Source: Halorussus amylolyticus (GTDB lineage Archaea; Halobacteriota; Halobacteria; Halobacteriales; Haladaptataceae). Taken from it: a stretch of 64,000 nt of DNA. The position numbers and the translations under genes are program-made. How positions within the stretch are numbered: the first letter of the stretch is position 1; the number at the start of each line of letters is the position of its first letter. Below, in pieces: positions 9,757-11,714 of this stretch. The notes below the pieces were generated by a model, which did no database searches, was not told where the DNA came from, and saw only the letters and a list, made by a program, of their open reading frames with translations. The stretch covers positions 232,917 to 296,916 of the forward strand of contig NZ_ML974130.1 of NCBI RefSeq assembly GCF_004143485.2, given 5' to 3'.

Positions 9757-10149
9757 CTACGTCTCGACTTCGAAGACGCCGCGAAGTCGCCCCTCGCCGA
9801 CCGACGAAACCTCGAATCCCAACGATTCGTAGAACGGTCGCACGCTCGGGTCGAACTCCGCAACCAGCGGCCGCCGAGCGACACGCTCGGCGGCCGCTTG
9901 GACGAGTCGGGTGCCAAGACCCCGCCCGCGGCGCGCGCGCCTGACCGCCACCGCGTCCACGCGCGCGCCGTCGGTTCGGGGCACGAGGACGAGCGCGCCC
10001 AGAATCGGCCCGCCCTCCGCGGCGACCAGCACGTCGCCGGTCTCGATTCGGGTTTCGAGGTCGTCCCGAACGTCGAGCATCGCGGCGTCGAGAACGCGAC
10101 GCACGCCGAGCGAATCGTCCGGGGTCGCTTCGCGAATCCCGACGCTCAT
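9757..10149 (-). CDS. GNAT-family N-acetyltransferase
   Basis: 130 aa, a compact GNAT fold: IREATPDDSLGVRRVLDAAM, the acetyl-CoA loop VRRARRGRGLGTRLVQAAAERV (Q/RxxGxG/A type), and VRPFYESLGFEV near the end. Its ATG overlaps the stop of the SAMP2-redoxin gene by 4 nt (ATGA), so the two are translated together; Lys or N-terminal acetylation linked to the modifier or redoxin is possible but unproven. A 14-bp perfect palindrome with a 3-nt loop (9867-9897) lies in the segment encoding VQAAAERVARR. Confidence 0.85.
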   Translation of the reverse strand: MSVGIREATPDDSLGVRRVLDAAMLDVRDDLETRIETGDVLVAAEGGPILGALVLVPRTDGARVDAVAVRRARRGRGLGTRLVQAAAERVARRPLVAEFDPSVRPFYESLGFEVSSVGEGRLRGVFEVET

Positions 10150-10898
10150 TCGTCGGCTTCGAGCATTCGGTCCACCATCGCCAGCACGTCGTCCGTCGAT
10201 GGTCGGTCGGCGGGCTTGTCGCCGCGGTGGACGGCGAACAGTTCGAGCCCGTCGCGGGCGTCGAGAATCGCGGTCTCGGGCATCCGTCCCACGATGTCGA
10301 GTCGCTTCCCGAGCGCGCCGAATCGCGTCGGTTGGCCGTACTGGTCGGCGACCGACTTCTCCTCGTCGGCGGCGAGCGCGAACGGGAGGTGGAACTTCTT
10401 CTGCCACTTCTCGGCCTTCGCCTTCGGTTCGGGCAGGACCGACACGACCGCGGCGTCGCGGTCCCGGAACTCCCCGTAGCGGTCGGCGACCTCCTCGACC
10501 TGCTCGCGGCAGTTCCGGCAGCGGTAGTCGCGGTGGAAGAAGACGACGATGGCGTCGTTGTCCGGGTCGGCGGCGAGGTCCGAGAGAACGACCGGGTCGG
10601 GACCCGCTCCGGCGTTCGGGAGTTCGAAGTCGAGAGCCGAGACGCCGAGACCCCGGCGTTCGCGGTCGAACTCGGGTATCGGCCCGGCGTCCGCCTCGTC
10701 GCTCCCGCCCTTGATGAGCCGAAGCACTTTGACGTGGTCGGCTTCGACCGGCTGGTCCTCCGGCACGGGGCGGCCGTCCACCATCACCGACACCTCGTGG
10801 GGGCTGAGGTCCACCGCCGCGAGCAGGTCGGCGTAGGTCGCGTCCTCGACTTCGAGGTCGTGGCTCCCCTCGCCGACGACCTCGACGGTGACGTTCAT
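10146..10898 (-). CDS. SAMP2 (ubiquitin-like) domain fused to a redoxin/peroxiredoxin-like domain
   Basis: 250 aa, one uninterrupted frame. Residues 1-65 (MNVTVEVVGEGSHDLEVE ... HVKVLRLIKGG) match the archaeal ubiquitin-like modifier SAMP2, which normally ends at the di-glycine. Here GG is at residues 64-65 (codons 10704-10709) and translation continues into an acidic linker (SDEADAGPIPEFDRERRGL) and an AhpC/TSA-like thioredoxin fold: ALDFELPN, VVFFHRDYRCRNCREQVEEVADRYGEF (C127/C130). There is no stop after GG and no ATG or GTG near the redoxin start, so this is a true fusion in this assembly. Release of active SAMP2 would need a protease (HvJAMM-like). It is coupled to the GNAT gene by a 4-nt overlap. 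Confidence 0.88.
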   Translation of the reverse strand: MNVTVEVVGEGSHDLEVEDATYADLLAAVDLSPHEVSVMVDGRPVPEDQPVEADHVKVLRLIKGGSDEADAGPIPEFDRERRGLGVSALDFELPNAGAGPDPVVLSDLAADPDNDAIVVFFHRDYRCRNCREQVEEVADRYGEFRDRDAAVVSVLPEPKAKAEKWQKKFHLPFALAADEEKSVADQYGQPTRFGALGKRLDIVGRMPETAILDARDGLELFAVHRGDKPADRPSTDDVLAMVDRMLEADE

Positions 10899-10970: not shown

Positions 10971-11660
10971 TCAGTCGTCGCGGTCACCGACCGCGACGAC
11001 CTCGGTGTCCCGGTCGCCGACGAGCAGTTCCTCGACGGTTCGGACGACCGTCTCGGGGTCGGCGTCGCCGCCGGCCTTCTCGACGCTCCCGACCGAACCC
11101 CGGTCGAAGGGCACGTCGAGCGCGGCGTACACCGGGTCGAGAACGTCCGCGATTTCCTCGTGGTCGCGGACCACCACGACGCCCGAGACGAGCGCCGCGT
11201 TCTTCCGCACGCGCTGGGCGACTCCGACCAGTTTGCCGTCGCGCTGGAGCGAGTAGTCGCCCGCACAGAAACTCGCCTCGGGTTCGCCCCGGAGCGCGGG
11301 CACGCCGAGCCGCCAGAGCGCGCGCTGGACGGCTCTGGTGGTCTCGTCGTAGCGTTCGTCCATCCCGACCCGCATGTCGTCGAGCGGGACCGCGTGGGCG
11401 AACGCGACCGTGTTGCCGGTGTACGCGACCGCCCGCCCGCCGACAGACCGCTCGACCGGGTCGAAGCCGGTGGCGCGAGCGACTCGCTTGGCGACGTCGT
11501 AGCCGTCGGCCCGCGAGTCGCGCCGCCCGAACGCGAGCTGTCGGTGGGGTCGCCACACCCGAATCGCGGCCTCGCCGGTCGCCGCGGTCCGTTCGAGCAT
11601 CGCGGCGGTGGCGTTCCGGTCGGCGTTCGGCGAGTCCGCCCGCCCGCGGAGTACGCGCAT
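10971..11660 (-). CDS. Lipoate/biotin protein ligase family (LplA-like)
   Basis: 229 aa from ATG 11660; an alternative ATG at 11675 adds five residues. It has the BPL/LplA-LipB fold: RVWRPHRQLAFGRRDSRADG, the ligand loop ERSVGGRAVAYTGNTVAFAHAVP (equivalent to the RxxGGGxVxH region of LplA), and the catalytic Lys region CAGDYSLQRDGKLVGVAQRVRKNAAL. It may attach lipoate or octanoate to E2/GcvH proteins. It lacks the C-terminal accessory domain of bacterial LplA, as archaeal forms do. It is upstream of and co-directional with the SAMP2-redoxin gene, 72 bp apart. Confidence 0.82.
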   Translation of the reverse strand: MRVLRGRADSPNADRNATAAMLERTAATGEAAIRVWRPHRQLAFGRRDSRADGYDVAKRVARATGFDPVERSVGGRAVAYTGNTVAFAHAVPLDDMRVGMDERYDETTRAVQRALWRLGVPALRGEPEASFCAGDYSLQRDGKLVGVAQRVRKNAALVSGVVVVRDHEEIADVLDPVYAALDVPFDRGSVGSVEKAGGDADPETVVRTVEELLVGDRDTEVVAVGDRDD

Positions 11661-11714
11661 ATCCGGGGGTTGCATCCGGAGTACCTAAATCCACCGGGGT
11701 TCGAAGTGCGAGCG

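Follow-up and report, generated by a model that had tools for sequence, protein, structure and literature searches.

Haloarchaeal SAMP2, a ubiquitin-like (Ubl) modifier, is usually regarded as being made with a ready GG end, yet the genus Halorussus makes only a fused SAMP2. In the stretch of Halorussus amylolyticus DNA analysed here (the window, 64,000 nucleotides of contig NZ_ML974130.1), the GG of SAMP2 is internal rather than at the translated C-terminus, and a linker and a redoxin come after it.

A SAMP2 domain and a redoxin in one reading frame

The gene and its parts are as follows.

10146-10898, minus strand: SAMP2-redoxin fusion gene, a single open reading frame of 250 aa with an ATG start and a TGA stop
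10704-10898, minus strand: SAMP2 domain (beta-grasp, ubiquitin-like), residues 1-65 (PF21965, NF041919, AlphaFold2)
10704-10709, minus strand: codons of Gly64-Gly65, with the predicted cut directly after Gly65 (from the invariance of KGG and the HvJAMM1 paper, PMC4443979)
10647-10703, minus strand: acidic, variable linker, residues 66-84 (19 residues; from pLDDT, dN/dS and the lack of an in-frame start)
10149-10646, minus strand: AhpC/TSA redoxin domain (peroxiredoxin fold), residues 85-250 (PF00578 and Foldseek)
10509-10520, minus strand: C127-R-N-C130 motif in the redoxin domain (from the sequence)

The first-pass annotation of the window had matched residues 1-65 to SAMP2 up to its di-glycine, and two profiles bear this out. 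Residues 1-62 match Pfam SAMP2 (PF21965) with E 6.7e-31 and 106.9 bits (cut-off 27), and residues 1-65 match the NCBIfam SAMP2 model (NF041919) with 116.6 bits (cut-off 70). AlphaFold2 places the strands and helix of a compact beta-grasp in residues 1-60 (pLDDT about 90), and the nearest solved chains to this part of the fusion are those of SAMP2 (2l32, 4hrs). The domain ends in LRLIKGG, and the first residue past the GG of this 28 kDa protein is Ser66. Residues 63-79 have a pLDDT below 50 and the linker is predicted to be disordered to at least residue 79; in this model the GG region is thus predicted to be accessible and disordered.

Residues 85-213 match AhpC-TSA (PF00578) with E 2.9e-18 and 66.4 bits (cut-off 26), and Foldseek matches the redoxin model to peroxiredoxins, for example 5enu (E 5.6e-10) and 3drn. 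Against the SelL-related redox protein model NF040769 the redoxin scores 53.8 bits, under the subfamily cut-off of 120. The annotation had left the strand of the frame unstated; it is the minus strand. Where the annotation had described an acidic linker leading into a CxxC redoxin, the redoxin stands. The CxxC is not a fixed feature of it, because among 16 fusions from Halorussus 6 have Ser in place of C127 and 1 has Ser in place of C130, with both cysteines lost in none. The annotation was also right that no stop, start or frameshift separates the domains: the frame is single, and the linker of the H. amylolyticus fusion contains no in-frame ATG, GTG or TTG. An intact Ubl with its GG is therefore followed by an unrelated domain within one open reading frame, as expected of a processed Ubl precursor of the ubiquitin-fusion type.

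A sole SAMP2 gene, fused here and in relatives

A profile search of the H. amylolyticus genome found no second SAMP2 over the cut-off. Exactly one SAMP2 is present in each of 18 Halorussus genomes, and nearly all of 392 Halobacteria genomes likewise have one. An in-frame SAMP2-redoxin fusion occurs in 17 of the 18 Halorussus genomes and in five genomes from three other genera. The annotation had called for a search for a stand-alone SAMP2 gene and for the same fusion in relatives; the former appears neither in this genome nor in the fusion-bearing sister genomes, and the latter is present in nearly all of Halorussus, so that a fusion unique to one strain is rejected. Since SAMP2 is encoded only as a fusion, its reactive end would have to be cut free post-translationally.

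The sole Halorussus exception (G074) has a GGGGGG run at the GG codons that is apparently one base short; its SAMP2 ends in KGGAV-stop and the redoxin lies in another frame (L050, 1501-1704). Either a true re-split or a homopolymer sequencing slip could account for this frame change. In one of the 17, the MAG G171, the frame breaks later, within the redoxin. A further incomplete MAG (G139, L029), in which the SAMP2 start is in frame with the redoxin, was left out as an extra fusion, since the middle of its SAMP2 is scrambled and no GG is present; it is probably a misassembly or a pseudogene.

In other families samp2 has a stop, and the same redoxin begins only a few bases further on or at most about 160 bases away. 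Parsimony on a maximum-likelihood tree of the redoxin gives four state changes, which we read as three fusions (in Halorussus, in f5g38 together with f5g89, and in f5g82) and one re-split. An adjacent or fused samp2-redoxin pair is present in at least 53 sampled genomes, but among SAMP2 loci that were not chosen for a nearby redoxin the pairing occurs in only 3 of 88. The pair is therefore recurrent, not general.

Selection on the two domains

Median dN/dS in the 16 Halorussus fusions is 0.09 for SAMP2, 0.35 for the redoxin and 0.67 for the linker. The value for SAMP2 is 0.08-0.09 when fused and 0.096 when stand-alone in Haladaptatus; SAMP2 is equally constrained fused or free. The motif L-R-L-I-K-G-G is identical in 21 of 21 aligned fusions across separate origins. 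Immediately after KGG the alignment columns vary in sequence and length, and conservation falls sharply. Ubl domains that reside permanently within larger proteins usually lack a terminal GG, while processed precursors keep it, a contrast that gives a lead but is no test of the fusion. In principle, the invariant GG of the fusions could be kept for some other reason.

In the surveyed genomes masked GG ends occur only with JAMM1

Both in vitro and in vivo, the HvJAMM1 protease severs a linear SAMP1-MoaE fusion exactly behind the last Gly, a cut that is required for activity (PMC4443979). Linear linkages of SAMP1-3 are HvJAMM1 substrates (PMC4048286), and the JAMM of C. subterraneum (Caldiarchaeum) processes SAMP precursors (PMC6043591). 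We refer to a GG as masked when SAMP2 is fused or extended beyond it. Our 160 SAMP2 loci are a non-random sample, composed of the best-scoring SAMP2 matches and of loci with redoxin neighbours; 22 encode fusions, a tail of 1-24 residues past the GG is present in about 32, and the others stop exactly at GG. Some tail past the GG is thus present in about a third of the surveyed genes, in a sample enriched for redoxin neighbours. Stand-alone SAMP2 genes with tails of 1-24 residues include L244 (G055), L106 (G002), L053 (G201), L055 (G138), L237 (G308) and others. Genome G308 has two SAMP2 genes (L237, L246), whose tails past GG are 17 and 2 residues long.

A JAMM1-type gene, called from a PF14464 match with E at most 1e-12, is present in 280 of the 392 Halobacteria genomes. 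All 18 Halorussus genomes have one, with the metal site EE...HSHP...S..D intact. Among the masked-GG genomes it is found in 52 of 52 (22 fused, 30 extended), and a masked GG is found in 0 of 103 genomes without JAMM1. These 103 were assembled in two stages. In the first set all masked genomes had JAMM1, and in the 25 genomes without it SAMP2 always stopped at GG; a protein-level recheck upheld 24 of the 25 absences, and G192 was moved out of the JAMM1-lacking class after a weak match (E 3.6e-9). In a prospective test 80 further JAMM1-lacking genomes were searched, of which 79 yielded SAMP2, and 79 of 79 end in GG (one in GGGG). Thus 79 of the 103 were examined only after the prediction was set; seven JAMM1-lacking genomes, mostly incomplete MAGs, lie outside this test.

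The association of masked GG with JAMM1 gives a plain Fisher p of 5e-16, a value inflated by the relatedness of the genomes; stratified by family it gives p=2e-4, and at genus level, in the first set, p is 0.007. On the redoxin tree at most 3 of 3 independent pairs agree with the association, too few for significance. Close relatives of the fusions in which samp2 has its own stop (f6g8, f5g59/g60, f8g81) are largely without JAMM1. The protease is also found in many free-GG genomes, as expected from its deconjugating role, and its presence alone therefore proves nothing. A UbaA-like E1 and an NcsA-like tRNA thiolase are kept across Halorussus, the E1-like protein being missed only in a 62%-complete MAG. 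With JAMM1 kept as well, the pathway that uses a free GG appears intact, and a protease that, judging from the HvJAMM1 literature, should be able to cut after GG co-occurs with the fusion.

A precursor probably matured by JAMM1

We consider it probable, from these sequence comparisons, that the gene encodes a ubiquitin-style precursor that JAMM1 matures to free SAMP2 and redoxin. It had been suggested at first pass that such a precursor would need a protease to free the GG end. The lack of any other SAMP2, the invariant KGG and the co-occurrence of JAMM1 all favour this suggestion; the cleavage itself we infer. The whole 250-aa chain is made as one polypeptide, as the open reading frame and its conservation show, and a JAMM1-type metalloprotease would then act on the exposed and flexible linker, cutting it immediately behind Gly64-Gly65. 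The products would be a free SAMP2, ending in the GG on which the E1-like UbaA relies for sampylation and tRNA thiolation, and an equimolar amount of redoxin bearing a short acidic N-terminal tail. If the fusion were uncut it would give the tryptic peptide GGSDEADAGPIPEFDR, and a cut after Gly65 would give the semi-tryptic peptide SDEADAGPIPEFDR. Masked tails depend strictly on JAMM1, and this dependence points to a so far unrecognised role of the haloarchaeal protease in maturation, parallel to the processing of ubiquitin precursors. Such a role would explain why SAMP2 stops exactly at GG where JAMM1 has been lost.

The fusion probably arose when a samp2-redoxin pair, of the kind still kept by other haloarchaea, lost the stop codon between its two genes, a loss that, we propose, was tolerated because JAMM1 was already there. 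It may then have been retained neutrally, or through a functional tie of Urm1-like modifiers with peroxiredoxins. Under oxidative conditions eukaryotes attach Urm1, their counterpart of these dual sulfur-carrier modifiers, to peroxiredoxins (PMC7016264, PMC8561144), and Thermococcales Ubl genes adjoin genes for OsmC-type peroxiredoxins (PMC2948915). Together with the oxidant sensitivity of samp2 mutants, these conjugates and neighbours make a functional tie between SAMP2 and the redoxin plausible. A fixed redox mechanism should not be assumed, given the loss of one CxxC cysteine in part of Halorussus, and neutral stop-codon loss, tolerated through JAMM1 cutting, fits the data equally well. The recurrent redoxin link makes the connection of Urm1-like modifiers with peroxiredoxins, as yet unexplained, accessible to genetics.

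Other readings of the fusion

The domains might instead stay joined, with SAMP2 acting as a permanent Ubl tag or docking domain, a fixed counterpart of Urm1-Ahp1, and no free SAMP2 being made. In yeast and fly Urm1 does become attached to 2-Cys peroxiredoxins, and the peroxidatic cysteine is needed for this (PMC7016264, PMC8561144); mutation of samp2 makes H. volcanii sensitive to oxidants (PMC5587910), and the fusion arose about three times. If the tag were permanent, however, there would be no other SAMP2 to serve the retained UbaA and NcsA functions, KGG would be needless and yet is invariant while the residues just past it vary, and there would be no reason to expect masked GG to go with JAMM1. 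Further, 6 of 16 redoxins have lost C127, so that strict maintenance of a joint redox function is not seen. The annotation had offered a permanently attached domain as its alternative; weakened by the sole SAMP2, the invariant KGG, the C127 losses and the JAMM1 tie, it now seems unlikely.

Cleavage might also be partial, so that cut and uncut forms both matter, in a ratio set by redox state or by JAMM1 activity. DMSO-induced sampylation and the oxidant-sensitive samp2 mutants connect the pathway with oxidative stress (PMC5587910), and the two genes are neighbours or fused in those 53 or more sampled genomes. No sign of regulation was seen, however, the linker varies in length and sequence, and cysteines are lost in part of Halorussus; we regard a regulated ratio as quite unlikely. 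Little credence is likewise given to redox-gated maturation, in which the redoxin tail would sense oxidant and set the rate at which JAMM1 releases SAMP2, the uncut fusion mimicking a Urm1-peroxiredoxin conjugate. If this were true, oxidative stress would set the supply of the SAMP2 modifier.

Internal initiation, an internal promoter or a programmed frameshift might yield SAMP2 and redoxin separately from the one gene, but this is very improbable. In its favour is G074, where a one-base change in the G run gives SAMP2-GGAV-stop and a redoxin in another frame. But an in-frame start is absent from the linker in 14 of 21 fusions, that of H. amylolyticus included, a TATA-like element before the redoxin was not found, and alternative-frame stops past the GG lie at scattered, unconserved distances. 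An independent promoter and start for the redoxin, which the annotation had named as grounds for abandoning the fusion, thus failed to appear. An assembly or sequencing artefact (a lost stop or an indel), for which the frame irregularities of the single genomes G074 and G139 could be cited, deserves almost no weight, because independent genomes (17 of 18 Halorussus, with diverged linkers, and five from three other genera) carry the fusion in frame.

Relation to known systems

Ubl-fusion precursors and JAMM cleavage are already known kinds. In the eukaryotic Ub-L40, Ub-S27a and Fubi-S30 an N-terminal Ubl is made joined to a protein unrelated to it, from which it is freed after GG. These ubiquitin-ribosomal precursors are cut by cysteine-protease DUBs, their partners are ribosomal and further ubiquitin genes exist, whereas the Halorussus fusion is the only SAMP2 gene. 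The SAMP1-MoaE fusion and natural Ubl-MoaE proteins resemble the Halorussus protein in that an N-terminal archaeal Ubl is joined via GG to a second protein, and JAMM1 restores SAMP1-MoaE activity by cutting exactly after GG; however, the H. volcanii fusion was engineered and its partner is MoaE, not a redoxin, and the natural Ubl-MoaE proteins are MoaD-type and reported from bacteria and Crenarchaeota (PMC4443979). The CsUb and CsSAMP precursors of Caldiarchaeum are likewise archaeal and matured by a JAMM-family protease, but belong to a different lineage, and CsUb-pre has a short peptide tail of nine residues past GG, not a folded second domain (PMC6043591). In yeast Urm1-Ahp1 a Urm1-type sulfur-carrier modifier is coupled to a peroxiredoxin-family protein, though by a post-translational isopeptide bond and not by genetic fusion (PMC7016264). 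A thaumarchaeal Ubl-Cgi121 fusion and the Thermococcales Ubl/OsmC-type neighbours also place an archaeal Ubl within or beside another protein, but with another partner or another redoxin family (PMC2948915); the portion consulted contained no SAMP2-redoxin fusion. In the searchable literature, where absence is no proof, we found no report of a genus whose sole SAMP2 is fused to a redoxin, of haloarchaeal SAMP2 tails or of their dependence on JAMM1.

Neighbouring genes

The fusion is followed directly by one further gene.

9757-10149, minus strand: GNAT acetyltransferase gene, downstream of the fusion (PF13508, 1.4e-12)

The start of this gene overlaps the stop of the fusion (ATGA), and the two are therefore probably translationally coupled. 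In the sister genus Haladaptatus a GNAT-type gene directly follows the stand-alone samp2 (TTGA overlap), and no redoxin is present. The samp2-GNAT pairing is thus common to Haladaptatus and Halorussus, and the redoxin is not. Upstream of the fusion, at 10971-11675 on the minus strand, lies a lipoyl/biotin ligase-like gene (LplA-B_cat, PF21948).
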